A stretch of 43,497 bases of DNA from a virus. Position 1 is the first letter of the stretch. Every line of letters begins with the position of its first letter. The DNA lies in the IMG/VR virus record IMGVR_UViG_3300044960_000409, positions 1 through 43,497 of that record; one strand, given 5' to 3'. Below are positions 1 to 41,738 of this stretch, piece by piece. A model generated the notes under the pieces. The model made no database searches, was not told where the DNA came from, and was given only the letters and a program-made list of their open reading frames with translations. The position numbers were made by a program, and so were the translations under genes.

Positions 1-127
1 TCGTCTGACTCGTTCTTGTAGTCTTCGCTGTTGAATAGCTCCTCTAGTGCTTTGTATACCCGCGGACCGGCTTCCTTCTGATATTGCAGCCACTCCTCCC
101 AAGAAAGCCTGTACTGCTTCTTGTTGA
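1..127. repeat. 127-bp terminal direct repeat, left copy
   Basis: Bases 1-127 are identical to 43371-43497. The giant gene reads in frame through the join, which supports a circular (or circularly permuted) molecule. An exact 127-bp overlap is also the usual k-mer overlap of short-read assemblers, so it should not be read as a packaged terminal repeat. Confidence 0.98.
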
Positions 128-6100: not shown

Positions 6101-9100
6101 CTTTTGTGATCATGGGCTCCGGCACGCGAATCTCGGTCCGTGCCCAGTCAACGTCGCCGAGCGGGTTCATTTCGACCTTTGTCACGACCCCGACGAGCTT
6201 TTGCGGGAACCCTGGAACAACAGTGACCTTGGTGGCCGCCACTCCTGGATACAGACGCTCGTACTCGTCTGTGAACAGCAACTCGCCAAGCCTCACACTG
6301 TCGCCGCTTCGCAGCTCCTTGACTGCGCTCGGCAGGTGCCATTCTTTCCTCTGCCCTAAGTACTCTGTCGCCCAGTGGCCGTTGTTCTGCCTTCGCCACC
6401 CTGTCTGTTTGTATATTTCAGATTGCGGAACGCCCTGCGCCTCGAGCTCTTTGGCTCGCACAAGCCCTCGCTCTAGAGAGTGTCCGAAGCGAGCAAGTAC
6501 GTCCTGGTTGAAGGAGCTGAACTCCGCATAGTCGTCGGTGTAGCCCCGAGTCGCCCTTTCCCCTGCAAGCGTAAACAGGTACTCCCGTGTGGCCAGCGGC
6601 GACTGGCGGCCGGTGATCATTTCGTATTCGGCCGGAGCACCCTTGGCCAACATCTTCAGGACATATTTGGCCGCAGTATGGTGCGGGCTTGTGTGGTCCA
6701 GCCAGTTGGCGCGAATCGCCCTGCGCTGCGCGTCGCTAAGCTCGGACACCGGGAACTTCTTACGCTTGTCGCGGGTCCACTCTGCGAGAGTTTCGCGCAC
6801 ACTCTCGACCGTGCGGCCGTCGGGGGCTCTCCCGATGACCTGCCTGCCCGGCTCCGACAGATAAGCCACCCCGAACCGGTTGCCGGAGGACGCCCGTTGC
6901 AGCCATGCGTCAGCGCCAAGCTCCCTCATGGCGGCGGCCTGCAGGGCGGTCCTGAGGGTTGCTCCCGGCAGCATTGAGCGCGCGTGGCGGGTGATGTACA
7001 CGTTCAACACATGGCCCCCGTCACGCGAGGCAGAACCCGGCGTCAGGGCCATCGTGGGAGTCAGGTCCCAACCGCCTCTGGCGGCAGACGTGTCAGACAG
7101 GACCGTGATGTTGACCGGTATATCGCCGATTCCCCTAGCCAGCCTGACCAGCCCGGAGGTGCCGGGGATATCTTTCAGCGTCAGGCGGCGTGTCCCGAGC
7201 GGGAGCGACTTCTCAAATGCGTCAATCTCAGGGTTCGGCCCGGCTAGGGCGTCAATGACAGACTGAGGCACGCGACGGGCCTTCAGCACTTCGCGCACGG
7301 ACGCGATGGAGGCCACAGCATCGGCAATACCTAGGCCGCCAGATGCCACCATCACCGGAGGAGCCGCGGGAAGCTCGTATGCTCCGTCGCGTGCGCCCAC
7401 ACGAGGCAAGTGCGCGTATGTCTGGACGGCGTTCCTGGCTTCAGGGGCGGCCTCGCGGACCGTGAACATGGACTGCTGACCGGCCTGATCCTGCTGTCTC
7501 TTTGCGGCTTCCGCCTCACGTTGCCGCTGTTGCTCCTGTAGCTGTGCGATGCTCAGGCGCAACTTGTCCAGGACTTCAGGGAAGAACTCTGCAGCCAACT
7601 CGGAGGGCGTGGGCACCCTGTCTATCTTGATGCCGTCGCGAATCTTCTGCCGGACGCGCTCGTCCAGGTCCCTGTCCAGGTTGAACAGCATCCTGACCTT
7701 GTCCAGGATGTGCCTGTTCGAGCTTGCCACGCTTTCGGCCTCTGCCTTGCGCTCCTCGGCCTTGATGGATTCTCCTTCGAGAAGTTCAACGTCGGTAGGG
7801 GCAAGGACTGCGGCCCTGTACTGGCGGGCCTTCTTGGCCAGCACCTCCTTGACCTGATACACCACGGCCTCGACGTCGGCCAGAGTCTGCGCCCAGGCCT
7901 CATCGAGCACCATCTGCCCTGTTCCGCCGGTGAACCCAGGCCCGGTCCTCTGGATCTCGTGCTGTTGCAAGATGTCCTGTGCGAACAGCGCTGCTTTCTG
8001 GTACGAGGTGATCTCGGTCTGCATGATGCCGCGCATCACCATCAGCTGCAGGTCATGGTCTGACACGTAGTCGCCGATGGCAGCGCCGACGTCTTCCGAG
8101 ACAGCGCCGTTCGCAACGTTTGCCAGCGCCTCGTCAGACAGCTTGGCAAGGCCACGGATATTGCGCGCGATGCCCATCCTCAGGCTGATGCCGTGCTCCT
8201 GCAGGCGCGACATATCCATGTTGAGGTCGCGCAAAGCTCTCAGGGCGTCCAGTGCCGTGCTGTGGCCCGCCCTGATATTCGACACGGCGGCCCAGCCACG
8301 CACTTTCTCCAGCGTCCAGCCGTCGGACTCCCTTAGAATGCGTATCGGGATCTTGCGGTCTTTCTGCTCGACCAGCTCTATTGGGTTGTCGGGGTCGCTG
8401 GTCGGGCGCTCTATGAGGAACCGCTTTGCGCGCTTGGCCAGGTCCAACCTGTGGTGCCCGTGAACCACGTAACGCGTTCCGTCTTCCCGCTCCCAGACGT
8501 CAAGCTGCCGGGCTTGATCAACGAAGAAGACGTCCGTGCCGCGCAGCGTATCCGTGACCCTGTTCTCAAGGTCCACAAGGCCCGTCTTGAACTGAATCTC
8601 GGGGTGCACCTTGATACTGCCTGGGTCTACCCACTCGTCAATCCGGACCTCCCTGTCCTCCATGCTGTCGGGGCTGGGTCTGGAGACCTTCTCCGCAGGC
8701 TTCTCCGCAGGCTTCTCTGCAGGCTTCTCTGCAGGCTTCTCTGCAGGCTTCTCTGCAGGCTTCTCTGCAGGCTTCTCTGCAGGCTTCTCTGCCTCAGTTC
8801 GCGGCGGTGCCTTTTCGGCCTCTTCGCCCGGAAGCCTGGACCACCAGCCTTCCGGATGCCTTGCGAAGTACCTGTCCAGATACGCCCTGACATTCGGGTG
8901 AAAGTCCCGGTTCTCTGCGACGACGCCCCTTCTCACAACCTCGGCGTTTGCTCGCGTCACAGGGACCAGCTCGCTTGCCCGGAAGTCGGTCGTTCCGCGC
9001 GGGTTGTCAGTCCAGCTTGCTGCGTTCAGCCTGAGCTGATACACACGTTCTCCGCGTTCGCGCACACCCGTATCGCGGACCAGGGTGTAGACGGCATTGT

Positions 9101-12100
9101 AATAAAAGCCATCCCGCGACCGGACGAAGAACTTCTGCCCCTTGCGGAATCTTCCGGCGTCAGGGTCTTCGTAGAGGCCTGCGGGGCCAAGCTCCTCAGG
9201 TGTCAGGCGTCTTGACAGTTTGAGATGATTGAAGTCGTTGTCTATGACAGCTTTGTAGGGGCCGCGCGCATAATGCTCAATCGAGTCCCTGATCGTCTTG
9301 ACGCCCTGCTCGAACTGCTCATCGTCGAACCACGTCGGCCTCAAGTACACACCCCTGTAGGTGTAAGGCACCTCCTCGTCCGGGAGGTCAAGATGGCCGA
9401 CCTCTGTCCGGTATTCGTTGACCTTGCGCACCTGCACTGGCGGGAGCTTTGCGGGCGTCTCCGGCGCTTTCTCCGGCTCTGCTGCGGGCTGCGCGGGCTG
9501 CTGCGGCTGCGTCTCCTTCTGTTCCGGCGGCACAGGCTCCATTGTGAAGCGCGACGGCTTATCCAGTTCTGACGGCGCTTGCTCCGCCGGGGCGGGTTTT
9601 TGCGGCTCGGGTTGTGTGGCCTCCTCGGCGTATCGGGGCTGCTGCGCCACACCTGCGTGCGCAAGCAGCGCCTGCGCCACGTAGTCCTGCGTGCCGCTTA
9701 CATCGCGCGAAGCCTGCTCCGCAAACCGCGTGGCCACCTCCGGCGTTATCGCGCCGTCAGGCGCAGCCTTCTTCAGGAACTCACCCAGAAGCCTGGCCTC
9801 GTCATAATACAGCTGCCGCGCAACAGGAGTCTGTGATTCTTTGAGCCTTACGCTGTACGCCGGACCGTTCGTCCTTTGTCCGCGGGGCGCCTCCGCCACA
9901 TACGGGCCGAGGTCCAGGGTTCGCGGAAAGGCGCGGCGCTGGATTATTGACCTCCGGGACGAGTCAGTGGCAGGGACGGCCAGCGTCCTCATCTCTTCAA
10001 GCCGTTCCCTGCGCCTGATCTCGTACGGGTCCGTCGTGGTGGCCCCTTCAGGCACCTGGCCGGGCTGCCAGCGCGGCACGTTGATCGGAGGGCCAACGTA
10101 CATCGGGGGCGGCGTTGGCATCCCGATATCACGCGGAGCAAGCGGCGAAGCGGGCCGACGCCACCCCTGGCCGGGCTGCGCTTGCCCGGAGGCAGCTGCC
10201 TCTGGACCGGTCTCTGCCTGTGCGGCCGCCTCCGGGCTCCATTCGCGCGCCTGCACGCCTCCGCTGGCCCACTGACTCCTGAACTGCCTGTAGGTGCGGA
10301 ACTCGGGCTTGTATAGCGCGCGGATGAAGTCCGCTACGCGCCTCACGACTACCGGCGCCGAGCCGCCACGCGCCATCTCGCGCGCAAGGTAGGTCATTGT
10401 GTAGGCCGCGGCCTCGTCCACGGACTGAGAGTTCGCCCAGTTGACTGACAGGCCGTATTTCTGCGCCCCGACCTTCGCAAGCGCCATGTGCTCGTCGTCC
10501 GTGACAAGCCCGCCATGGCGCATCACGTGGTAGATCTCATGCGCCACATCCCCGATATCCACGGTGTCAGGGTTCTCCATCCTGACGAACACGCGGGGAT
10601 TGTTCGGGTCTGTGATATCTGTGAACGCAGGTGGAAGATCTGCGGCGTTTTTGATGGTTTCGCGTGAACGCTCGTACGCCTCGCGGCTTTCTTCGACAGC
10701 CCTGCGAAAGAACTCGTCGTCTCGCGCCTCTATTGTGAACGTTCTGCCGCCTTCGGTCTTGACCCTGACACCGTTCGGGACGGTTTCGACGTCTACTTCG
10801 ACGTGCTGGCCGCCGGGCACAGAGCGCAGGATCTTGCGGAGATAGGCGCGTGTAAACGCCTCGCTTGACTCGCCCTGGGCCAGCGCCTCCTTGATGTCGG
10901 CCCAGCGCTCCGATGTTTGCACCCCCTCGAAGTTGACTCCGTAGCCGTCCTTGTCGCGGAATGCATGACCCTTCGGCGGCTTCACGAACTCCGGGGCTGG
11001 CCTGCGCTTCTCGCCGGTGACTTCCTCAAGCGCGGCCTCTGCGGCCTGCTGAGCATACTGGCCACCAAGCTTGCCGATGGCAGCGCCTGTAAGGGCAGTC
11101 ACTGCGGCTCCGCCGCTTGCCAGGAGTCCTTCAGACAGCACCTCTGCGGCCATCTTTCGAGATGCCAGCGGCGTGCCTACGGCCAGCTGCGCCCCCAGCT
11201 CCTGTCCGGACTCGGCAACCGCACCGGCCGTTGTGGCCAGCGCGCCGCGCCCGAGCCTCTGCAGCATCGAGATGCCGGGCGTTGCGGCCCAGGCCCCGAG
11301 ACCCATAGTGGCCAGGCTTCCGGGGACGCCGAGGGCAGCGGTTGTCTGACCGTGAATGTGCCCGTACTCCTCGGCCTTGCGCCTGAACGTCGGGTTTGCG
11401 GCTGCCCACCGCAACGCCCGCGCGTCCTTGACGTTCACCCCATGCTCGCGCAGGTAGTTGAACTCCTCAAGAGCGGAATCAATGGCGTATTCGGACCGTG
11501 CCTGTCCCAGTGCGCCTGCGGCAAGGCCTGTGGCGATGCCCCCGACACCGGTAGCTTTGCCAAGGACAGCGCCGACGATACCGGCGACAGGGGACCTTGC
11601 GATCTCAGGAACCTGCTGACCGAGCTGTTCCCACGTGAGGTCCCATATGCCCTGCCCCCAGTTCCCGAGGGCGTACTTCCACCAGTCCAGGTGTGTCGGG
11701 TCCAGGCCTTTCTTCTTTATCTCCTCGACGCCTTTGGCGCGCCCCATCCTGTCTGCCGTGGCGGCCAGGCGCGCGGCCTCCTCGTAGTCGCCGCGCTTGT
11801 ATGCCAGGGCCGCCTCGATGTTCAGGCCGCCTGCCAGGAACGCGTTCACCGCCGTGCCTACAGGTCCCTTAGGCGGCCGCTCGTCTTTCAGGCTTGCCGC
11901 GTCGCTTACGGCCGACCTGTAGACCTCCTGCACTTTGTTGGTGACGATGTCAGCCGCGGACTGCGCCGCCCTTCCGGCGATCATGTACTGCGCCGCCCGC
12001 TTCAGGACTTCCGGCGCCATCTCACGCGCAGCAAGCCTTGCCGTAAGCAGCGGGGCCTGCTCCGCCAGCATCGTTCCAGCCGGGCCTGCCACAAAGCGAG

Positions 12101-13367
12101 CCGCTCCGCCTGCCGTGCCAACGGCCGGTCCAACGCCGAGGCTGCCGATGGTGGCCGCCGTGATGGCGGCTGCCTGCATCCACGCCCGCTCCGGAGATTC
12201 GGCCTCCGCCTGCAGCTGCGCAGGCGTGGGGCTCGGCAGTTTGACGCCATGCCACAGACTTTCATCAGGCCGCGGCGGCAGCATCGCGCCTTCGGGCGGC
12301 GGGACCACAAATTGCCGCGGCCTTCCCGGCGGTGTCAGGCGTTCGTGGCCAAGGCGCATGCTATGCGCGTCCAGAAGTGGGCTCTTTACCTTGTCGGCGT
12401 TCTCTACGATGTCCCGGCTGATGCGCGCCGTCAGATATGCGTGCCTGACGGCCTCCGGGTTCCATTTGAAACCGGCGTATTTGACGTCGGCCATCAGCTC
12501 GTCCAGGCCCTCCCACGGCTCCGCTTTGACCCGCCACGTTGCGATCAACCGCTTGGCCTGCTCGCTTAGCTGAGGCCCTTTATACTCGCTGACCTTCTCG
12601 AACTTTGGCGGCTGCTTGAACTCGGGAAGCGGTTCCTTGAACTGCTCCAGCCTGTCTCTGACGGTGTAGAACCCGCCGAAGTGCTTCTTGTTATACGGGG
12701 CGTCGAGTGTGTCGTAGATTACTTTGCGGCGTCCGCCTGCTGCGGCATGGACGAACTTCTTGCCGCCAAGGTAGATCCCGGCATGGAACACCTCGCCCGT
12801 CTTAGGCCTGCGGAACAGGATCACGTCGCCCGGCTGAGCCTCGGCCTCGCCAACGCGTGTAAGGGTCTTCTCCATCTCCTTTGTCGTCCGCGGCAGCTTC
12901 AGGCCAAGGTCACCGAACACGCACTGAACAAAGCTGGAGCAGTCATAAGGGGTGTTCCTGTCAGCGCCGCCCGGTGCTCCGAACTTGTACGGAGCGCCGA
13001 GACGTTTCTCTATCGCCTCTGTCAGGCGCTGCTGCGTCTCGGGGGAGAAGCTGCCGTACCTCGGAGTCATGACCTTATTGCGTATGAGGACGTCCTCTAT
13101 GGTCTCTCCGGGGCGGCGCTTCAGATTCTTCATCTGAGCTTCCTGCTTGGCCGCTCCTTCCGGCGCAACCGTGCTCATAGCACCTACGCGCGTCAGGATG
13201 TCCTCTATGGTCTCTCCGGGGCGGCGCTTCAGCTCTTTGAGGGATTCGGGCAGCGGCTTTTCTACAGGCTCTTCCTGCCACACTTCGGGCACCCTGTATG
13301 GCCCGAAGCTCATATCCTTCAAGAACTGCTCAATGTCGTCGTAGTCGTAGTCGTTCTGCCGCCTCAT
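1..13367 (-). CDS. Giant 4507-aa polyvalent/ejection protein (N-terminal 99%)
   Basis: The frame is open from ATG 13367 to base 1 and continues across the circular junction to a TGA at 43214-43216, giving 4507 residues. The ATG overlaps the stop of the preceding gene (ATGA). Domains read by hand: a duplicated PGETIED motif (about residues 45-100); an NlpC/P60 cysteine peptidase (about 110-225; Cys143 in YDCSSF, His195 in FHAGIYLG); Ala/Gly-rich hydrophobic stretches (about 390-780); a zincin motif HEIYH at 943-947 with acidic residues downstream; eight EKPA repeats (about 1526-1560); a ParB/sulfiredoxin-type segment (GHH at 1637-1639); a degenerate ART-type entry motif near 2852-2875; a polyvalent-core-like segment with GLVMPSLAI (about 3130-3190); and hydrophobic segments near the C-terminus (about 4100-4330). 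Its place after two internal-virion-like genes and before lysis matches T7 gp16, so I infer a virion ejection protein with cell-wall hydrolase activity. The separate roles of the internal domains are unknown. Confidence 0.93.
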   Translation of the reverse strand, partial: MRRQNDYDYDDIEQFLKDMSFGPYRVPEVWQEEPVEKPLPESLKELKRRPGETIEDILTRVGAMSTVAPEGAAKQEAQMKNLKRRPGETIEDVLIRNKVMTPRYGSFSPETQQRLTEAIEKRLGAPYKFGAPGGADRNTPYDCSSFVQCVFGDLGLKLPRTTKEMEKTLTRVGEAEAQPGDVILFRRPKTGEVFHAGIYLGGKKFVHAAAGGRRKVIYDTLDAPYNKKHFGGFYTVRDRLEQFKEPLPEFKQPPKFEKVSEYKGPQLSEQAKRLIATWRVKAEPWEGLDELMADVKYAGFKWNPEAVRHAYLTARISRDIVENADKVKSPLLDAHSMRLGHERLTPPGRPRQFVVPPPEGAMLPPRPDESLWHGVKLPSPTPAQLQAEAESPERAWMQAAAITAATIGSLGVGPAVGTAGGAARFVAGPAGTMLAEQAPLLTARLAAREMAPEVLKRAAQYMIAGRAAQSAADIVTNKVQEVYRSAVSDAASLKDERPPKGPVGTAVNAFLAGGLNIEAALAYKRGDYEEAARLAATADRMGRAKGVEEIKKKGLDPTHLDWWKYALGNWGQGIWDLTWEQLGQQVPEIARSPVAGIVGAVLGKATGVGGIATGLAAGALGQARSEYAIDSALEEFNYLREHGVNVKDARALRWAAANPTFRRKAEEYGHIHGQTTAALGVPGSLATMGLGAWAATPGISMLQRLGRGALATTAGAVAESGQELGAQLAVGTPLASRKMAAEVLSEGLLASGGAAVTALTGAAIGKLGGQYAQQAAEAALEEVTGEKRRPAPEFVKPPKGHAFRDKDGYGVNFEGVQTSERWADIKEALAQGESSEAFTRAYLRKILRSVPGGQHVEVDVETVPNGVRVKTEGGRTFTIEARDDEFFRRAVEESREAYERSRETIKNAADLPPAFTDITDPNNPRVFVRMENPDTVDIGDVAHEIYHVMRHGGLVTDDEHMALAKVGAQKYGLSVNWANSQSVDEAAAYTMTYLAREMARGGSAPVVVRRVADFIRALYKPEFRTYRQFRSQWASGGVQAREWSPEAAAQAETGPEAAASGQAQPGQGWRRPASPLAPRDIGMPTPPPMYVGPPINVPRWQPGQVPEGATTTDPYEIRRRERLEEMRTLAVPATDSSRRSIIQRRAFPRTLDLGPYVAEAPRGQRTNGPAYSVRLKESQTPVARQLYYDEARLLGEFLKKAAPDGAITPEVATRFAEQASRDVSGTQDYVAQALLAHAGVAQQPRYAEEATQPEPQKPAPAEQAPSELDKPSRFTMEPVPPEQKETQPQQPAQPAAEPEKAPETPAKLPPVQVRKVNEYRTEVGHLDLPDEEVPYTYRGVYLRPTWFDDEQFEQGVKTIRDSIEHYARGPYKAVIDNDFNHLKLSRRLTPEELGPAGLYEDPDAGRFRKGQKFFVRSRDGFYYNAVYTLVRDTGVRERGERVYQLRLNAASWTDNPRGTTDFRASELVPVTRANAEVVRRGVVAENRDFHPNVRAYLDRYFARHPEGWWSRLPGEEAEKAPPRTEAEKPAEKPAEKPAEKPAEKPAEKPAEKPAEKPAEKVSRPSPDSMEDREVRIDEWVDPGSIKVHPEIQFKTGLVDLENRVTDTLRGTDVFFVDQARQLDVWEREDGTRYVVHGHHRLDLAKRAKRFLIERPTSDPDNPIELVEQKDRKIPIRILRESDGWTLEKVRGWAAVSNIRAGHSTALDALRALRDLNMDMSRLQEHGISLRMGIARNIRGLAKLSDEALANVANGAVSEDVGAAIGDYVSDHDLQLMVMRGIMQTEITSYQKAALFAQDILQQHEIQRTGPGFTGGTGQMVLDEAWAQTLADVEAVVYQVKEVLAKKARQYRAAVLAPTDVELLEGESIKAEERKAEAESVASSNRHILDKVRMLFNLDRDLDERVRQKIRDGIKIDRVPTPSELAAEFFPEVLDKLRLSIAQLQEQQRQREAEAAKRQQDQAGQQSMFTVREAAPEARNAVQTYAHLPRVGARDGAYELPAAPPVMVASGGLGIADAVASIASVREVLKARRVPQSVIDALAGPNPEIDAFEKSLPLGTRRLTLKDIPGTSGLVRLARGIGDIPVNITVLSDTSAARGGWDLTPTMALTPGSASRDGGHVLNVYITRHARSMLPGATLRTALQAAAMRELGADAWLQRASSGNRFGVAYLSEPGRQVIGRAPDGRTVESVRETLAEWTRDKRKKFPVSELSDAQRRAIRANWLDHTSPHHTAAKYVLKMLAKGAPAEYEMITGRQSPLATREYLFTLAGERATRGYTDDYAEFSSFNQDVLARFGHSLERGLVRAKELEAQGVPQSEIYKQTGWRRQNNGHWATEYLGQRKEWHLPSAVKELRSGDSVRLGELLFTDEYERLYPGVAATKVTVVPGFPQKLVGVVTKVEMNPLGDVDWARTEIRVPEPMITKGDFEPEHILPHLQSLISIHEGWVPPPQWHMIGDPDVIRDAYMLYASRHERMTTPMRYAHVAWSPESPPLLKKVIGSDTVGLKVLAAAGYPGQEMALNPYGPRGFQWLEALIAHDPEAENRLMELRATAVKQHHTKTRVSAIMPEVSWMYGEDLGNIPVCILTDIASSGVIGIHYKRLGGVEAVQPSGLAVYLGVGPGREEAARAADILGQLVMAAKVLQGIPWSEVPAVKTPSVARRLFTAGQGSLFGNDELEDLVGFGSIQDYVPLAPLAADTDIGAPYTRYSTKPQEYPYGAIRTGTPLTVEAMKAHKLIERPFGWPMGQAMVGQRAIEGAAGMSTVWRYAGDGKWQRFEGGRWAAPTSLPADQVRRFIPYTDKNIQVLEAVGNTKVPRVTQARLQYQSVQGRLFTVRDRTPDAFATPDPAITGSTAFKRWFSGSVVRDRQGRPQVLFQSAAAGAAALARGHKGLKVYTTPSPVDYIRSIANAVDVKVGPRMFVPASMVWNSLTPEARKRVAALARRLAIGPDNEAALAPEAVELTTFEATLEHTGGDPIIAALTEVFGKREVPDFEPRKIVDALRLLGLEATAFNPDAYRGDYVPTLIRIESPVTNEDLQSGTSEVRRVLSAAAVTPARKKGLADALARLAAGDAGGITGWMVEALQDMGRDGFYLQIGGKPMAIPFWASQVRLAVPPGDWAIPGTQPERLFSADTKMIVTHGTSNVMPSAPAYMYGWKGLVMPSLAIHRPGKTPDIGTVTLIADPKLIPWDDDRLYVYSGDAYTPVPSMREPLRSAIVGQFRTNYRMPSATFTPGQSAYDVVTGQPEYRAAVNALRGDYGIDILTPKPDGESRIGQPEYSWVSLLLSHDFPEIAGKLADVADPARTFRWRTDASRAVAGLALETAEAAAGRAAVLAAGLRLSDFPPFFKKGEGVREARGILKRIAALKKDIRRFQIEWNAGTAYMQMPQDAAEHAGKTLAELTRIARDGFELARKHEDILDDFLASVMRFVTYNTPSELVTADNVEGLYRVTPEIVNAYAARYKTVAGRVLAATAGVRPDQDVESLVTVEHWIKPLKRLKGLKDVKGRAPYLMPSDVPGATSIPIDYEMRGAMEFLRNLQRQGEITEEDAERVSDHVARIWDEAMLLLPHREFDAARTAEEVISNRIPRPVLNRYGPLVYQTLLAEIENQQQMYAAPYFEAKYMGHMPLNVFKLAIAGTETARTDLKAALRRAGIELIPYREREGHRARQTAVEEAAARHDLIFWTAGDPPPDDGTVFVYRGSRKEMEDDLRMGKRISSINVKLIDLSMASDPDRVLDEFRAFARKQAEDIRAPQSWNKTRILALAAAADLTPERMRRLLGRPVTAASPEELIAVYGVMLNLREEAHAAAVTYFNEPTLENARAMAEAQRQYELAWMLADAQTRRAGQALNALKMIKRAFDSQEPAAIVAQRLMEIQGHITDMQMMAIQQANGDPVELRKLLDRAMDLQLRFGDKLHAIQYCALLSSIGAHAANLYGNLFHWFLTESVTKPVAGVLDAAAGGDRSRYAGVNQLTAIYELASTKAGRVELVKMLTGAVHSARAAFRFGADQQTLDKYELRWIKDLPNIRVGDKEYVNPINWPGRALLASDSMARAIITRLYIEEMAMSSARAYFGRRGIKPTPQEYAAYIAETRAKLAMDPYTTEQANEYADDILYTKQHPTGFVGQFFNLVEESVWEGIKPVKFVVPIKNVVVNMARVSGQYTPLGFIEFLLRHKHLNRRQKTLLLSRAIVGTAFITGVLAMQSAGMIQLVGEGPDPALSTERLRRNLGKRAWTIRIGNIYIPLQEFGPLAMAMYFAAGWTQAVKEGNTPLLSGFLAMYQGLLETTFLQGISSFMKALSDGGTWVERTGSNILNQLIPYSGLLGNIATAVHPVAPFLQRRPEEREVHAIARRLASRFPVIRGMLPQQIDPFGRPVPQEPTGLRAFFRIAGMRYKEDPVVDELLRIRYGPAYVSSIMTINKKQYRLSWEEWLQYQKEAGPRVYKALEELFNSEDYKNESD
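8689..8792 (-). repeat. 12-bp tandem repeat encoding (EKPA)8 linker
   Basis: Eight full copies and a partial copy of a 12-bp unit (plus strand TTCTCTGCAGGC, the first two copies with TTCTCC). In the frame of the giant protein it encodes Glu-Lys-Pro-Ala repeats at about residues 1526-1560, between the zincin-containing region and the ParB-type segment. Such charged Pro/Ala repeats are typical stiff inter-domain linkers. The copy number is likely variable. Confidence 0.9.
13093..13232 (-). repeat. Duplicated PGETIED motif near the N-terminus of the giant protein
   Basis: Two exact 32-bp copies (13093-13124 and 13201-13232), 108 bp apart, each encoding a segment with LKRRPGETIED just before the NlpC/P60 domain. 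The exact nucleotide identity points to a recent in-frame duplication of a 36-codon unit. Confidence 0.85.
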
Positions 13368-30964: not shown

Positions 30965-32291
30965 GGCTTGTCTCCATCATGATCCACTCCCCTCTGCTGA
31001 ATTGCATCCCCTTCTGCCTCATCTCCTTCAGGGCTTCGAGGCGGTCGCTCAATTTCTCGGGCTCCTCGCCCGCGCTGATCTCTTTTGGTTCCGGCATGCT
31101 GCAGGCTGCGTACCTGAGGGCGTCGAGCCGGTGGTATTTGTTCTTGTCCCTTATCTTCTCTGTTGGTTCTCCCGACTCATCCAGTTCCCTTTGATATGTC
31201 AGAAGCTCTCCGCGGAGGCCGTTCAGGCCTCTGAAGATGCGTATGCGGTTATGTTTTATGAGCGCATACACGCGGTCAATCTGTGATTCGGGGTCGTTGA
31301 CGGGCGGTTCTGCGACCGGGATACCGGCTATCTGGTAGTCTAGGCGCTGTGCCTGTTCGGTGTGAGCGCCTCCGAACCAGCATATGACCGGCTCATTGTA
31401 GTCCAGCATCATCCGTGCGTGTTCGTAGATACTGAGCCCGCCCATGAGCGTCTCGCGGTAGATGAAGATCATCTCGGATGCGGGGTCCACGGCGAGCCAG
31501 ACCGTTGCGGTGTTCTGTGCTCCGAAGTCAATACCGACGATGCGAGGCCACTGTTTCGGGATCGGGAAGGCGTCGCAGGTGTGCTCGACGTCGTCGTAGC
31601 AGTCGTAGACCAGGCCAGCGGGCCTGGTGAACTCTCCGCAGTAGAACATGCGGAACTTCCAGTCCGGGAGTGTGTTTCTGGCGCGTTCGAACTCCTCCGG
31701 CGGGAATGCGGGGTTGTCGCAGCTGCGGAAGTTGATCAGTCCGTAGTCGGGGTCGCCTCCGACGGCGCGGCGGTAGACCTCGTAAAGCCATCCGCCTATG
31801 GTGTAGGGTGTGGTGGTCAGGAGTGCTCTGCCCTGATGAATGCTCAAGCGCCGCTGCACGGCCTCCCAGGCCTGTTGAGAGAACTCCTCCTGCCCGCACT
31901 CATCAAGCCATGCAGCCTTCGCGGTCGCTGATTCTAGTCCTCCTTCGGACTGCGCCGAGCGCAGGATGATGCGCGTGTCGCCTTTCTTGAGGATGCGGTC
32001 GCTCTGCGAATACACCCAGCCAAGAGGCTTGAAGAAGCTGAGCACCTCCGGCAGGAGCTTCAGCTTGTACAGGTCATAGGTCGCGGTTGCGATCAGGTAG
32101 TCACCCGGCCCCCTCCTGCGCATCTCGCGCTCCATCCAGACCGGGCCGAAGCTCGTCTTGCCCCCCTGAGTCCCCGCCAGTACCAGGACGAACCTCGCCG
32201 GGCAATCCCAGGCCTGAGCCTGACCCGGATGCAGATTGTATTGCCTCTTGCGGACCTTCCCGTCCACCACCTCCGTCACCAGGGTGTTCAT
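30927..32291 (-). CDS. terL: Terminase large subunit, 454 aa
   Basis: DNA-packaging motor ATPase and nuclease. The N-terminal ATPase has Walker A GTQGGKT (40-46) and Walker B AAWLDE (Asp130-Glu131), followed by a coupling-type motif TTTPY. The C-terminal RNase H-fold nuclease has VGIDFGAQ (Asp255) and DALRYA near residue 383. The start (MNTLVTEVVDG) lies 190 nt inside the small-subunit frame. It acts with the small subunit and portal encoded on either side. Confidence 0.95.
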   Translation of the reverse strand: MNTLVTEVVDGKVRKRQYNLHPGQAQAWDCPARFVLVLAGTQGGKTSFGPVWMEREMRRRGPGDYLIATATYDLYKLKLLPEVLSFFKPLGWVYSQSDRILKKGDTRIILRSAQSEGGLESATAKAAWLDECGQEEFSQQAWEAVQRRLSIHQGRALLTTTPYTIGGWLYEVYRRAVGGDPDYGLINFRSCDNPAFPPEEFERARNTLPDWKFRMFYCGEFTRPAGLVYDCYDDVEHTCDAFPIPKQWPRIVGIDFGAQNTATVWLAVDPASEMIFIYRETLMGGLSIYEHARMMLDYNEPVICWFGGAHTEQAQRLDYQIAGIPVAEPPVNDPESQIDRVYALIKHNRIRIFRGLNGLRGELLTYQRELDESGEPTEKIRDKNKYHRLDALRYAACSMPEPKEISAGEEPEKLSDRLEALKEMRQKGMQFSRGEWIMMETSRAGDHYLDDYGL

Positions 32292-32661
32292 CGGCGCGTA
32301 TGACTACCTCCACGACATCAATCTTGCCGGTATCCCCGCGTTCGTCGAAGATCCCGACATGCTTGCCCAGCAACTCCAGAGCACGCACCCTCGCCGTTGA
32401 CAGGGTGTCCCCGGCCATCCCGCGCGCCTCAAGCCACAACCGCTCCAGAACCGCGTCAGCAGTGATCGAAGTGCGGTAAGAACGCTCCTCCATACGCGCC
32501 TCAATCATCTCGCGGACATCCGGGTCGGAAAGCATCCTGCGCACCATTTTACCAGACGGCGATTTGATACCACAACGCTCAAGTGCCGCGCGGCCGTTCA
32601 AATCTACCAGATACTCGTCGGCAAAACGCCTCGCCAGATCCAGAAACTCGACATCCTCCAT
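32101..32661 (-). CDS. terS: Terminase small subunit, 186 aa
   Basis: The N-terminal two-thirds has the helical DNA-binding plan of terminase small subunits: FADEYLVDLNGRAALERCGI, MLSDPDVREMIEARMEER, then SITADAVLERLWLEARG and ALELLGKHVGIF. The segment KIDVVEVVIRADE matches the usual C-terminal end of this family. After it, about 63 Gly/Pro/Gln-rich residues overlap the large-subunit gene and read like overprinted extension. The ATG at 32661 has GGAGTGAG upstream. It is the first gene of the late operon. Confidence 0.88.
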   Translation of the reverse strand: MEDVEFLDLARRFADEYLVDLNGRAALERCGIKSPSGKMVRRMLSDPDVREMIEARMEERSYRTSITADAVLERLWLEARGMAGDTLSTARVRALELLGKHVGIFDERGDTGKIDVVEVVIRADEHPGDGGGGREGPQEAIQSASGSGSGLGLPGEVRPGTGGDSGGQDELRPGLDGARDAQEGAG

Positions 32662-32960: not shown

Positions 32961-33006
32961 GGGCATAACGTTTGCTGCCCCCTAAAGGGGGCGCAACGTT
33001 ATGCCC
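32961..33006. repeat. 46-bp imperfect inverted repeat (candidate origin/terminator hairpin)
   Basis: The left arm begins GGGCATAACGTT and the right arm ends AACGTTATGCCC. The inner parts CCCCCT/AGGGGG also pair, with two mismatched positions and an AA centre. The arms contain the same CGTTATGC unit that is iterated just to the right. Confidence 0.8.
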
Positions 33007-33044
33007 TGATGGGACCGCTGGAGCAGAAGGATCAGAAAATGCGG

Positions 33045-33210
33045 GCGTTGCGCCCCGAACGTAACGTTGCGCCCCGTTGCACTAGACGTTGCACGTGAGC
33101 GTGGTAGACTAAAATAATGGGGGTGCAACACGCGTTGCAATGGGGTGTAACGTTATGCGTAATGGGGGGTGTAACGCTTATGCGGGCGTTATGCGTAGCG
33201 TTGCGCTTGA
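33045..33210. repeat. Iterated CGTTGC / CGTTATGC motifs (iteron-like)
   Basis: About nine copies of CGTT(AT)GC occur at irregular 10-25 bp spacing, near 33046, 33065, 33075, 33088, 33133, 33151, 33174 (variant), 33187 and 33199. Several share flanks such as GTAACGTT and GGGGTGTAACG. They resemble initiator or repressor binding-site arrays. Confidence 0.6.
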
Positions 33211-33377
33211 GTGTAGTGGACTCAAGTCTTTGGTAAAAAACGTTACCCCCTGTCGCAAGTGGAGTCGCAAGAAGAGGGGGATTTAGGCGAATGTGTGGAG
33301 GGGAAACCCTACGGGGGCGATAGCCCGCCCGGATACCCACCCCCGCCACCTCCTCCCAGCAGGGAGTGAGCTGGACC

Positions 33378-33481
33378 GCCACTTCGTGGCCTTTGATCTT
33401 TGCAAGAGAGAAAGAGCGGACGGGCACTTCGTGCCTTTCCATCTTTGCTTAGAAGATATGCGGACGGGTCACTTCGTGACC
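33378..33481. repeat. Three 45-bp repeats, each with a covarying mini-hairpin
   Basis: Hairpins GCCACTTCGTGGC (33378-33390), GGCACTTCGTGCC (33423-33435) and GTCACTTCGTGAC (33468-33480) start exactly 45 bp apart. The outer stem pairs differ between copies but always remain paired. Each is followed by an ATCTTTGC box; GCGGACGG precedes the second and third. On the minus strand the loop is C-GAA-G, known to form very stable DNA mini-hairpins. Confidence 0.85.
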
Positions 33482-33850
33482 TCTTGATCTTTGCCCCCCC
33501 GCGGCTCTGCGAAACCGTCGCAAAGGGGCGGTCCGGTCGGGGTCTGGAATAGCCGCGCCCGGTCTTTGTGTTTCCCTCCGTGGCCTGCTTCGCCGCATCC
33601 AAGGCCGTGGAGGCGCTGGCCGCCTGCCACGGCCGCGCTGGCCGCTCGTGTGGTTATCACATTCACTACGGCCGCTCTTTCTATTCCGGGGCCGTGGAGG
33701 ATATCCTGCCCGCATCAGCCGCGCCCGCCACCCATCCGCACGCATCATCTAAGGAACGAGCCGCCGCCACATCCCACCCGCACGCGCCGCCATCCGCCCG
33801 CGATCACCCGCCGCCCGCACGCAACGCATTGCGCGTGCATCCGAGCACGC

Positions 33851-33875
33851 GCCCGGCGCGCGAAGCGCGCCGGGC
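33851..33875. repeat. 11-bp GC hairpin with GAA loop
   Basis: Perfect stem GCCCGGCGCGC / GCGCGCCGGGC around GAA on the plus strand. It is not followed by a T-run, so it is not a classical terminator. It shares the C-GAA-G loop of the three-hairpin array, but on the other strand. Confidence 0.75.
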
Positions 33876-34014: not shown

Positions 34015-34043
34015 TTGACACACCATAGATGCCATGGTATAAT
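34015..34043 (+). promoter_or_regulatory. Consensus sigma70 promoter P1 for the early operon
   Basis: TTGACA (34015-34020), 17-bp spacer, TATAAT (34038-34043): a perfect -35/-10 match, 50 nt before the first early start codon. Indicates transcription by host RNA polymerase. Confidence 0.92.
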
Positions 34044-34092
34044 CCAGGCAAGGATAGACGGCCGCCGCCAGCGGCCGGAAGGAGGAACACCA

Positions 34093-34539
34093 ATGTTGAG
34101 GAGATTCTGCTTCGCAACGTGGACACTGCACGGAGGAACGACGATGAACCGCTTTGAATGGAAGTCTCTGGACGCCGCAGGGCTTCGGCCCGGCGCCGTG
34201 GAATGCCAATGCACTAGCACGGAGCGCCTCTGCGGCCCGTGCACCATGGACCTGTTCCTGCGCTTCGGGCGGGTGAAACTGCCCGAAGCGCGCCCGATCG
34301 CCGCCATCGTCAGCCCGCACGCCTTCTGCTTCATCGAGGCGTACAGGAATGCCGAAGGCCGCAGGACGGTCCAGGTATCCTATGGGTGGAATGGATGGTA
34401 CCGCATGCAGGATATCTGCACCCTGCAGGGCTACAAAGCACTTCGCGATGCCGCGGAGTTTGTGTTCTACGCAGTCGAGGCACAGGCAGCCCGCGATATC
34501 CGCCGGGCGCTGGAGCTGGAAAAGAAGGAGGACAAATGA
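34093..34539 (+). CDS. First early protein, unknown, 148 aa (or 131 aa)
   Basis: Unknown family. Two in-frame starts both have good ribosome sites: ATG 34093 (GGAGGAACACCA upstream) and ATG 34144 (GGAGGAACGACG upstream). The mature part has two Cys pairs close together (CQC at about residues 38-40 and CGPC near 49-52 of the longer form) that could bind a metal. A beta-rich central part with FCFIEAYRN and YGWNGWYRMQD follows, then a C-terminal helix rich in Ala and Arg. It sits directly behind promoter P1, where phages often place host-takeover proteins; that role is only suggested by position. Confidence 0.75.
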   Translation: MLRRFCFATWTLHGGTTMNRFEWKSLDAAGLRPGAVECQCTSTERLCGPCTMDLFLRFGRVKLPEARPIAAIVSPHAFCFIEAYRNAEGRRTVQVSYGWNGWYRMQDICTLQGYKALRDAAEFVFYAVEAQAARDIRRALELEKKEDK

Positions 34540-34784: not shown

Positions 34785-34809
34785 CATATCGTCTATTGAG
34801 TGCTATACT
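34781..34809 (+). promoter_or_regulatory. Sigma70 promoter P2 upstream of the primase gene
   Basis: TTGACA (34781-34786), 17-bp spacer, TATACT (34804-34809). The -35 overlaps the end of the zinc-ribbon gene. A GGAGGAACACCG ribosome site and ATG 34830 follow. Confidence 0.88.
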
Positions 34810-34829
34810 GTTTTCGTGGAGGAACACCG

Positions 34830-35663
34830 ATGATCATTGCAGAGTTTTCGTCACTCACCGACAATCGCCCAACCCACACGTCCATTGACTGGGCAGCGCT
34901 GGTCGAGCGCCTCAGTGTCTTCCAGTCCGTTGCAGAGAAGGGCGGTCCTTTGTGGAGTCCTGTTATTTACAGGCGCGAACAGTCTCGGGCTGCCTCCAAC
35001 GTCATCGCTGTGACGGCGCTATGCTTCGACTTCGACCACGTGCAGGGCGATATGTCCAGGCTGGACGAGTTGCTTGCCCCGTTCGCGTACTGCGCCCACA
35101 CCACATTCAGCTGCAGTGCTGACAATCTCGCTTTCCGGCTGGTCATCCCCTTTGACAGCCCTATCCGCCGCGAGCGCTGGGAGGGGGTATGGGACCGCGC
35201 GTATTACTGGGTCTCAAGTTCAGGCCTGAAGCCCGACCGCGCGTGCCGTGACGCCAGCCGGATCTACTACTGGCCGCAACAGCGGTCCGAAGGGGCGGGT
35301 GTTGCGTGGTCGAACGACGGTGACTTCCTGAACCCGGAAGTCCTGCCCGAGCTGCCACCGCCGCCGCGCGCCCGCCCCGTCTACAACCCCTCCAGGACAG
35401 GACCGGCCGCAGACCCGATGAAGATAACCGAAGGGTGCATCAGGCGCGCCCGTCCGGGCAAGCGGGCGGTGCTGGGGTTCTGGCTTGCGCGCAAACTGCG
35501 CGACAAAGGTATATCCCAAGAGGCGGCCGAAGCCTGCCTGCTTTACTATCAAAGCGCCGTCGGAGACGAAGGATTCACACGCAGAGAGGCGCTGAACGCC
35601 GTCAAGCAAGCGTTCCGCCGCCCGCCACAGCTGGAGGCTACCAATGCAGGTTCATACAGGTAA
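34830..35663 (+). CDS. Archaeo-eukaryotic-type primase / prim-pol-like protein, 277 aa
   Basis: Probable replication primase. ALCFDFDHVQ (Asp67, Asp69) is the metal-binding DxD of the archaeo-eukaryotic primase fold. AHTTFSCS with AFRLVIPFD follows as in the catalytic His and basic strand regions, and RDASRIYYWPQ matches the last core motif. After a Pro/Arg-rich linker, residues about 205-275 are helical (RAVLGFWLARKLRDKG, then EAAEACLLYYQSAVG), like a PriCT-type module. The start is ATG 34830 behind GGAGGAACACCG. It is followed at once by the helicase gene (20-nt overlap), a pairing typical of compact phage and plasmid replication modules. Confidence 0.82.
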   Translation: MIIAEFSSLTDNRPTHTSIDWAALVERLSVFQSVAEKGGPLWSPVIYRREQSRAASNVIAVTALCFDFDHVQGDMSRLDELLAPFAYCAHTTFSCSADNLAFRLVIPFDSPIRRERWEGVWDRAYYWVSSSGLKPDRACRDASRIYYWPQQRSEGAGVAWSNDGDFLNPEVLPELPPPPRARPVYNPSRTGPAADPMKITEGCIRRARPGKRAVLGFWLARKLRDKGISQEAAEACLLYYQSAVGDEGFTRREALNAVKQAFRRPPQLEATNAGSYR

Positions 35664-36966
35664 GCGGTCCGTCACGGTCGTCCATCCGTGTGGCATCAGC
35701 ATCGAGTGCTCACGGATATGGGACGACCCGCGACAGGGGCTCAGCGCTGAAGTGGAGGTCTGTACGGTCCCACCGCTGGCCCACAGCAAACTATGGGGTC
35801 CGGTGCGGGCGGCGCTGACCAACCCGCGGGACATCAGAGAGCTCGTAGAGGACTGCAAGAGACTTACGCCCCACGGACAGGACATAGGCTGGGAAGATAT
35901 CGTGGTGCCAGCGCTTCAGATGATACTGGTCGCATGGCGGGCGGACCGTGAACCGCTGGACCTTTCCAAGGTAGCCCCAAAGCCGCCCTCGTGGGTCATT
36001 GACAAATTCTGCGCCGAGGGGGAGACGACATTGCTGGCAGCGGACGGGCAGAGCGGCAAAAGCCTTGTGGCGCTAGGCCTTGCAGTAAGCGTGTGCACGG
36101 GCCTGCCAATCGTATCGAAACGCCTTGAGCCCACATCGGCCGGGAAGGTCCTTTATGTTGACTGGGAGACGCATTCCAGTGTGCAGGCTGACAGGTTGCA
36201 CAGGATCTGCCGGGGAGCAGGGATATCCGTGGAGGAACTGAGCGGAGCGCTTTTCTACATGCAGGAGTTCAGGAGCGTCGCCGAGCGCGCAGAGGACATA
36301 GCTCGCTGGTGCGAGCGAGAGGACATAGCGCTTGTGATCGTGGACTCGGCGCTGTTCGCCGCTCACGGCGAGACTGAACGCAGTGAGGCGGCTATCAACT
36401 TCTGCAACGCCATGAACAGCATCGGACGCCCCGCGCGCCTTGCGCTGTCTCACATCTCAAAGGGCGAGCGGGCCAAGGCTTCCGGGCGTCAGGCTTACGG
36501 GTCCGTGATGTTCTTCAATGGCGTGCGCAATGAATGGCAGATGCGCTCGGCCATGGAGCCGGGGGCCAATGAGGTGCGAATGGCGTTCGAGCACACGAAG
36601 GCCAACAACACCGGCAGGCAGGAGCCCTTCGGGGTGTCCGTGGTCTTTTCTGACGGGGCCATCACGTTCGAGGCGATGGACCTTGCCACAGACCCGGAGC
36701 TTGGGCAGGTCGCGCCGTTGCCCGAGAGGATCATAGCCGTCATGACCACGTCGGTCGCACCAATGACGGCCAACGACATCGCCGAGACGCTCGACTGCCC
36801 GTCCAACACCGTCAGGGCCACCCTGCACAGGATGCAACGCTCAGGCCGAGTGGTGCGCCACACGGCCACATCAGGCGGCTCCTCCCTGTGGGGCCTTCCG
36901 GACAGGACTTACTCTTACGATATGGCCGGGAACCCCATCGGAACGGAGGCCGGAGAAAATGGGTGA
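35644..36966 (+). CDS. RecA-fold (RepA/AAA_25-type) helicase, 440 aa
   Basis: Replicative helicase candidate. The N-terminal domain (1-105) is beta-rich. The RecA-type core has Walker A ADGQSGKS (133-140), VLYVDWE (169-175), Walker B LVIVDS (230-235) and LALSHISKGE with an Arg/Gln-containing segment after it, as in RepA/DnaB-like hexameric helicases. Residues about 355-425 form a winged-helix-like domain (MTANDIAETLDCPSNTVRAT, SGRVVRH) suited to origin binding. It overlaps the primase gene and is probably co-translated with it. No other helicase or DNA polymerase is seen, so it likely loads host polymerase at the phage origin; that last part is inference. Confidence 0.85.
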   Translation: MQVHTGKRSVTVVHPCGISIECSRIWDDPRQGLSAEVEVCTVPPLAHSKLWGPVRAALTNPRDIRELVEDCKRLTPHGQDIGWEDIVVPALQMILVAWRADREPLDLSKVAPKPPSWVIDKFCAEGETTLLAADGQSGKSLVALGLAVSVCTGLPIVSKRLEPTSAGKVLYVDWETHSSVQADRLHRICRGAGISVEELSGALFYMQEFRSVAERAEDIARWCEREDIALVIVDSALFAAHGETERSEAAINFCNAMNSIGRPARLALSHISKGERAKASGRQAYGSVMFFNGVRNEWQMRSAMEPGANEVRMAFEHTKANNTGRQEPFGVSVVFSDGAITFEAMDLATDPELGQVAPLPERIIAVMTTSVAPMTANDIAETLDCPSNTVRATLHRMQRSGRVVRHTATSGGSSLWGLPDRTYSYDMAGNPIGTEAGENG

Positions 36967-37285: not shown

Positions 37286-38201
37286 AGAGGTGAGACAAAT
37301 GGACACACTGCCAGTCAGGTCAGAACAGTCGGCTGCCCTTCAGCGCAAGGGATTCAGTCCCGACGAGATTGCAACCATCAAGAACAGCCTTATGCCGGGC
37401 TGTAGCGACGCGGAGCTGAAGCTGTTCCTGCTGCGCTGTCAGCAGAGCGGCCTGAACCCGCTGAAAAGCCCGCCCGAGATATGGGCCATCCCGTTCAAGA
37501 AGAACGTCGGCACACGCGACAACCCGCGATGGGCCACTGTCTATGTCACACACACGAGCATTGACGGACTGCGGGTGGCCGCATTCCGGAGCAGGCACAT
37601 CACAGGATTCCTTGGCACCACCTCGCCGCAGTGGTGCGGCGAAGACGGGCAGTGGAAGGACGTGTGGCTGTCCAAGCAGCCGCCAGCCGCCTGCCGCGTC
37701 GGGGTCTACATGAAAGGCGTCCCGGAGCCTGTCTACACGGTGGTCCTGTGGAGTGAGTTCGAAAGTGTGCGGAAAAGAGCCGGGGCTGACGGCGGCAGGT
37801 GGGCAGAGATGCCTTCCCACATGTTGGCCATAGCGGCGGAGAGACGGGCGCTCAGGAAGTGCTGCCCCAACCTCTCGGACCTGCTGGGCGACATAGAGGC
37901 TGTCGAGGCCGGAGAGGCCCCGCCATCGGTCCAGCAGCTGGAGGCAGAAGCACTGCCCGGCGAAGTGCCTGATGCCGCAACGGAGGAGGCGGAGGCCGTA
38001 GACACGGAGACGGGGGAAGCTAACTCGCCCGGCACGCACCTGGAGGCATTCTTCAGCGCGGCCAAGAACTCTGGAATCCCGTCACGCGGGGCAGCCCGCG
38101 CATGGATGAAGCGCGAGTTCGGAACCCTGCCAGAGGAGGCCGATGAAGAATCGCTTGAGGCTGCTATCGGGGTTCTGATGGAGGCCACAAATGGAACGTA
38201 A
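37065..38201 (+). CDS. bet: Zinc-ribbon fused to Bet/RecT-type recombinase, 378 aa
   Basis: Single-strand annealing recombinase. From Met79 (ATG 37299, with GAGAGGTGAG upstream) the sequence follows the Red-beta family: MPGCSDAELKLFLLRCQQSG, EIWAIPFKK, THTSIDGLRVAA, and later WAEMPSHMLAIAAERRALRK with CCPNLSDLLGD. The same frame extends upstream without a stop to TTG 37065, preceded by GGAGG, and encodes CPKC...CMAC, a zinc ribbon, plus a basic helical linker. The product may be a 378-residue fusion, a 300-residue Bet, or both. The C-terminal about 90 residues are an acidic linker plus a small helical domain. It acts with Gam encoded downstream; no partner exonuclease is recognised. Confidence 0.85.
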   Translation: MQKRWLCPKCNVMEVRREGLMCMACYSRSWTQELPPEKALRWKHQLRAEELDRNLRRQGMDRRQRQKALRMITREVRQMDTLPVRSEQSAALQRKGFSPDEIATIKNSLMPGCSDAELKLFLLRCQQSGLNPLKSPPEIWAIPFKKNVGTRDNPRWATVYVTHTSIDGLRVAAFRSRHITGFLGTTSPQWCGEDGQWKDVWLSKQPPAACRVGVYMKGVPEPVYTVVLWSEFESVRKRAGADGGRWAEMPSHMLAIAAERRALRKCCPNLSDLLGDIEAVEAGEAPPSVQQLEAEALPGEVPDAATEEAEAVDTETGEANSPGTHLEAFFSAAKNSGIPSRGAARAWMKREFGTLPEEADEESLEAAIGVLMEATNGT

Positions 38202-38385
38202 GGCATACAAAGTCGAGGAGGCTGCCCGGTTGCTTGGAATCAGCCGGGCGCAGGCCTATAAGCCGGGCGTCCTGCCCACCTTCAGGATCGGACGGAGGAT
38301 ACTGGTGGACGCCGAGGCGCTGGACGAGATGATACGCCGCCTGCGCGAGCAGGAGGAAGCTGCGAGAGGGCACGGATTTGGCTGA
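38191..38385 (+). CDS. Helix-turn-helix DNA-binding protein, 64 aa
   Basis: MerR/excisionase-type HTH: YKVEEAARLLGISRAQAYK, then LPTFRIGRRILVDAEALDEM. It is the standard HTH_17 pattern of small phage regulators and excisionases. GGAGG lies 6-7 nt before the ATG, and it overlaps the Bet end by 11 nt. With no integrase present, a role as transcription or replication regulator is more likely than excision. Confidence 0.85.
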   Translation: MERKAYKVEEAARLLGISRAQAYKPGVLPTFRIGRRILVDAEALDEMIRRLREQEEAARGHGFG

Positions 38386-41702: not shown

Positions 41703-41709
41703 CAAAGCA

Positions 41710-41738
41710 AGCCCCCGGACATGATGTCCGGGGGCTTA
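41710..41738 (+). terminator. GC-rich hairpin after the 225-aa gene
   Basis: A 12-bp perfect stem (AAGCCCCCGGAC / GTCCGGGGGCTT) with an ATGAT loop begins 7 nt after the stop. The trailing bases are ATCCGT, not a T-run, so it may be a partial terminator or RNA-stability element reducing expression of the resolvase. Confidence 0.6.

Follow-up and report, generated by a model that had tools for sequence, protein, structure and literature searches.

The sequence analysed here (the window), a viral contig of 43.5 kb, contains a 1.35-kb non-coding gap between the minus-strand gene for the terminase small subunit (start at 32661) and an early operon read from the plus strand. An array of three short hairpins lies within this gap. 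The features of the gap and its flanks, with positions in the window, are:

32101..32661, minus strand: terminase small subunit gene (terS), the other flank of the intergenic region
32963..33206, both strands: iteron-like array, 12 x GYRYAACG, comprising 12 of the 21 copies in the window
33373..33403, plus strand: unit 1, with GGAC, hairpin GCCAC-TTC-GTGGC (33378-33390), and box ATCTTTGC (33396-33403)
33418..33448, plus strand: unit 2, with GGAC, hairpin GGCAC-TTC-GTGCC (33423-33435), and box ATCTTTGC (33441-33448)
33463..33494 (start approximate within 1 base), plus strand: unit 3, with GGAC, hairpin GGTCAC-TTC-GTGACC (33467-33481), which is one pair longer, and box ATCTTTGC (33487-33494)
33851..33875, plus strand: 11-bp perfect stem with loop C-GAA-G, containing GCGAAGC; here the plus strand carries the GAA, whereas in the mini-hairpins the minus strand does
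34015..34043, plus strand: consensus sigma-70 promoter TTGACA-17-TATAAT serving the early operon; the array lies about 520 bp upstream of it
34093..34539, plus strand: first early gene, with ATG at 34093 after AGGAGG at 34080, called from its ORF and coding score
34800..35663, plus strand: probable AEP-type primase (phrog_9765 'DNA primase', 7e-17; acidic motifs)
35644..36966, plus strand: RepA-like hexameric helicase (AAA_25, 9e-24) with a C-terminal winged-helix-like (HTH-like) region
38191-38385: HTH_17 protein of the early operon

The whole window contains three copies, and no more, of the hairpin core CACTTCGTG, at 33380, 33425, and 33470, and thus with the 45-bp period that had originally been claimed for a triple repeat. 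Watson-Crick stems comprise 5, 5, and 6 pairs in units 1, 2, and 3, respectively; on the plus strand, but not on the minus strand, a G-T pair further extends the unit 2 stem. The loop is TTC on the plus strand and C-GAA-G on the minus strand (CAC-GAA-GTG), as the original prediction had it. The units also share a conserved box, as predicted; this 8-letter box, ATCTTTGC, follows each of the three hairpins on the 3' side (starts at 33396, 33441, and 33487), 7 to 8 nt past CACTTCGTG. The hairpins do fall within 33378-33481, the extent first proposed, but the units are longer: GC[T]GGAC is conserved 5' of each hairpin and the box 3' of it, so the units reach outside that interval. Three triloop hairpins with a common 9-nt core appeared in none of 2000 shuffles of the gap, and two such hairpins in 2 of 2000. 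The three-unit array is a real, ordered, non-coding DNA element.

Coding capacity, which had been named at the outset as evidence that would count against a structural role, is excluded by ORF scores, GC content by codon position, and an in-frame stop. Open reading frames across the array have coding scores at or near background (the best is +3.5, versus 15-210 for accepted genes), and no codon-position GC signal was detected across it. A coding repeat was considered, given that 45 = 3 x 15 and that the ORF at 33293-33487 reads HFVxFxLC; it was rejected for its lack of a coding score and the position of the unit 3 box past an in-frame stop.

Covariation of the array stems is suggestive rather than established. 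Among the aligned units a single pair position varies, as C-G, G-C, and T-A; its neighbor is G-C in every unit, and the three inner pairs are invariant. Unit 3 resembles unit 2 plus one T-A pair, the T and the A being inserted symmetrically. The probability that the variable pair would be complementary by chance in every one of the three units is approximately 0.019. The covariation count finds one pair changed on both sides, and its score was reached or exceeded in 89 of 500 shuffles. Covariation can be no more than suggestive here because three sequences cannot reach significance. The description of the stems as covarying was thus overstated, although one pair does occur in three complementary forms and one extra pair is present. 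The same variable and inserted pairs had been read as compensatory change indicating selection on structure; with only three copies, that reading competes with template switching. Template switching at quasi-palindromes, or between hairpin arms, can make paired changes without selection.

Other features of the gap point to replication. The GYRYAACG copies lie 170-420 bp from the hairpin array, and such crowding of short repeats close to genes for replication is expected of an iteron origin. There are 12 copies in 245 bp, versus three or fewer in any 250 bp of 100 shuffles, a comparison that is descriptive because the motif was picked after inspecting the region. The cumulative GC skew minimum, at 35416, is about 2 kb from the array and is confounded by the switch in gene direction. 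We consider the intergenic region a probable replication origin.

The loop sequence places the hairpins in a physical class with well-described behavior. C-GAA-G belongs to the GNA loop family, which is reported to be extraordinarily stable when G-C pairs close the loop (PMC4686876), in agreement with the extreme stability first attributed to it. The DNA mini-hairpin GCGAAGC is likewise reported to be extraordinarily stable, melting at 78 C (PMC4686876). The array hairpins share the C-GAA-G loop of d(GCGAAGC)-type mini-hairpins, and the fourth hairpin of the gap, at 33851-33875, shares the loop and contains GCGAAGC exactly; this hairpin has no ATCTTTGC box. These mini-hairpins constitute a physical class, not a biological system.

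The early operon encodes a candidate replication module. The product of 34800-35663 is probably an archaeo-eukaryotic (AEP-type) primase. Its candidate residues are a DxD at D77/D79, R113 in the motif II region, and D151-x-S153-R154, following the AEP motif definitions, and the arginine in the motif II region, of the DR0530-like family (PMC5862659). The protein had no Pfam or PDB match, and its single-sequence structural model is poor (pLDDT 49.7). For the helicase encoded at 35644-36966, the best match among solved structures is RSF1010 RepA (1g8y, E 0.0024). RecT, RusA, a Gam-like protein, and a DNA methyltransferase are encoded further downstream. A 13-bp perfect hairpin, AAGCCCCCGGACA-TGA-TGTCCGGGGGCTT (41709-41737), occurs between early genes and is possibly a terminator. 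At the other end of the contig, a minus-strand ORF (3-13367) of at least 4455 aa runs past the contig end. It encodes a giant polyvalent virion protein with matches to NlpC/P60, HEXXH-like, ParB-like, and LPD23 domains, and a weak match to PBECR5.

The sole good promoter found in the region, at 34015-34043, is downstream of the array. It matches the sigma-70 consensus at 12 of 12 positions and has an extended -10, and its spacer contains CCAT...ATGG. The first early gene likely starts at its ATG at 34093 after AGGAGG, which places the array outside that transcript.

In plasmid RSF1010, RepC binds iterons and RepA exposes the stem-loops of ssiA and ssiB; priming by RepB' then takes place on the 3' side of the stem-loop (PMC4234260). 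Our tentative reading, to which we give somewhat less than an even chance, is that the intergenic region is an iteron replication origin in which the three mini-hairpins act as ssi-like sites for the phage's own AEP-type primase. An initiator, perhaps the winged helix of the helicase, would bind the GYRYAACG iterons, and the RepA-like helicase, judging from homology, would enter and unwind toward the array. Every exposed unit could then fold as a short hairpin, as its predicted pairing and C-GAA-G loop class suggest. By analogy with RepB' at ssiA, the primase might read the hairpin together with the flanking GGAC and ATCTTTGC and begin its primer at the box on the 3' side of the stem. The three copies of the unit may provide redundancy, and, more speculatively, the other strand may have its start at the 11-bp C-GAA-G hairpin (33851-33875). 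The repeats, their non-random nature, the iteron-like cluster, and the homology of the helicase are observed directly, whereas the identity of the primase, the function of the region as an origin, recognition of the hairpins, and initiation of primers at the box are inferred from homology and analogy. The original prediction had envisaged an exposed single strand used for replication, priming, or protein recognition; such a target fits the likely iteron origin and the genes for a probable AEP primase and a RepA-like helicase.

Bacterial DNA often contains CACTTCGTG mini-hairpins in tandem, so the array need not be a primase site. We found such mini-hairpins 41-49 bp apart in bacterial genomes of many phyla (at least 131 loci, L057-L187), which cautions against calling the motif alone phage-specific. 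An inert or mobile-like palindromic repeat captured from a host, with its pair changes made by template switching, would fit this frequency; among the matches listed, both stems extend by at least two pairs in 42 of the 131 bacterial loci. We nevertheless regard a captured repeat as improbable. Among the matches listed, just 2 of the 42 extended bacterial arrays have flanks that differ yet pair, and none of the bacterial arrays has the ATCTTTGC box; moreover, a one-sided box kept in diverged copies points to selection. Somewhat better placed, though still unlikely, are double-stranded operators, in which the palindromes (GGTCACTTCGTGACC and relatives) would bind a regulator or initiator of the phage, with the HTH_17 protein (38191-38385) as one candidate, and pairing would simply reflect two-fold symmetry. 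Palindromes of 13-15 bp at 45-bp spacing, and an early operon that encodes an HTH_17 protein, fit this explanation. However, the sole promoter found is about 520 bp from the array, symmetry does not explain a conserved box on one side, and the outer half-sites of unit 3 are one base farther from the center. At the RNA level, transcribed hairpins could serve as weak terminators, antitermination sites, or processing sites. On the plus strand, two of the hairpins resemble terminators, and ATCTTTGC bears a remote likeness to a boxA. Those two hairpins are weak terminator matches with a broken T run, and folding of the array region is ordinary (z -1.3 and -1.6). No Rfam family matched the array above the gathering threshold, and no promoter able to transcribe the array was found, while the early transcript should begin downstream. 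RNA-level function is therefore also improbable, to about the same degree as a captured repeat.

Two further explanations seem to us very unlikely. In one, the region would be a packaging site, with the units as binding sites for the terminase small subunit near pac or cos; the array is upstream of terS, and lambda cosB also has three repeated sites. However, about 700 bp separate the array from terS, no genome end was seen here, and hairpins with GNA loops are, to our knowledge, atypical of packaging sites. The other explanation is that the minus-strand hairpins are promoter elements of the N4 type, read in the template by a virion RNA polymerase that would initiate rightward early transcription from near ATCTTTGC. 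In N4, conservation of the three early promoters spans -17 to +1; their hairpin is centered at -11 and has a 3-nt loop closed by a sheared G-A pair (PMC4496689). The array matches this shape in having a short stem and a 3-nt GNA loop closed by C-G on the minus strand. There are three hairpins, with 5-6 bp stems and GAA loops, which face the early operon, and the box would start at about +2/+3 by the N4 ruler. Against such promoters, the -8G of N4 is A here, and +1 would be G, C, and T across the units. No RNA polymerase was found in the contig, which ends inside the giant gene, and the giant ORF (3-13367) lacks ordered polymerase motifs, its matches being to NlpC/P60 and polyvalent-protein domains.

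In viral contigs, the hairpin-plus-box pattern had 38 matches, none with a stem extended by two pairs, and two hairpins at the array spacing had 16 matches. At least 121 matches to paired boxes were examined, and none among those listed had hairpins at both boxes. A complete unit was not found in any other virus scanned. The viral contigs yielded no relatives by helicase, primase, or terS; by TerL there are 15 relatives, at 41-55% identity. The helicase and primase of this phage were not found in these 15, many of whose records are fragments. In the Vibrio phages with the closest primase, the partner helicase is of the SF1 type, not RepA. In one distant terminase relative (L055, 4783-5104), a primase/helicase gene is separated from the terminase genes by a cluster of GTTGTCA iterons plus two palindromic mini-hairpins, GGCTTCGTGAAGCC. 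Its layout parallels that of the phage studied here, but the mini-hairpin sequence and loop differ.

Among known systems, the early promoters of coliphage N4 that are read by its virion RNA polymerase (vRNAP) likewise comprise three DNA hairpins with a short stem and a GNA triloop closed by C-G, but the -8G that N4 reads is changed here, the +1 base is not conserved, and no RNA polymerase was seen in the incomplete contig. Plasmid pRN1, which likewise combines AEP, helicase, and winged helix, requires an intact stem-loop. The pRN1 family and those phage replicons that encode the AEP-helicase-winged helix combination (for which a stem-loop origin has been proposed, as in BIP-1) share with this phage the gene set and a structured origin element, putative in this phage. 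The pRN1 origin, however, is one stem-loop of about 100 nt located 3' of the replication gene, whereas the phage has tandem mini-hairpins upstream; pRN1 has an SF3 helicase and no iterons, whereas the phage has a helicase of the RepA type and an iteron-like array.

The ssi sites of RSF1010 offer the likeness on which we draw for the primase-site reading. Like them, each unit combines a short hairpin with conserved sequence on its 5' and 3' sides and lies close to iterons (iteron-like repeats here), in a genome that encodes an AEP-type primase (probable here) and a RepA-type helicase. The ssiA site has a 6-nt 5' tail, a hairpin at nt 7-27, and a 13-nt 3' tail (PMC4434180), and the phage units are similarly laid out, with GC[T]GGAC, the hairpin, and about 13 nt ending in ATCTTTGC. 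The GTG start motif of ssi is absent from the 3' tails of all units. RSF1010 is a plasmid rather than a phage, its primase and helicase are far diverged in sequence from those encoded here, and no homologue of its RepC was found in the phage. RSF1010 has one ssi site per strand, whereas the phage array has three units on one strand. It is conceivable, though we think it doubtful, that very stable C-GAA-G mini-hairpins arrayed in tandem on one strand, each with a start box, provide repeated start sites for an AEP primase and RepA-like helicase beside iterons; a multi-copy ssi system of that kind is without description in the literature surveyed. If the units are primase start sites, AEP-RepA modules beyond plasmids would carry their own repeated hairpin start signals, and small defined oligonucleotides could be used to probe what phage AEP primases recognize. 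The array would then join the few systems in which recognition sites in folded single-stranded DNA are known: RSF1010 ssi, N4 promoters, and pRN1-type origins.
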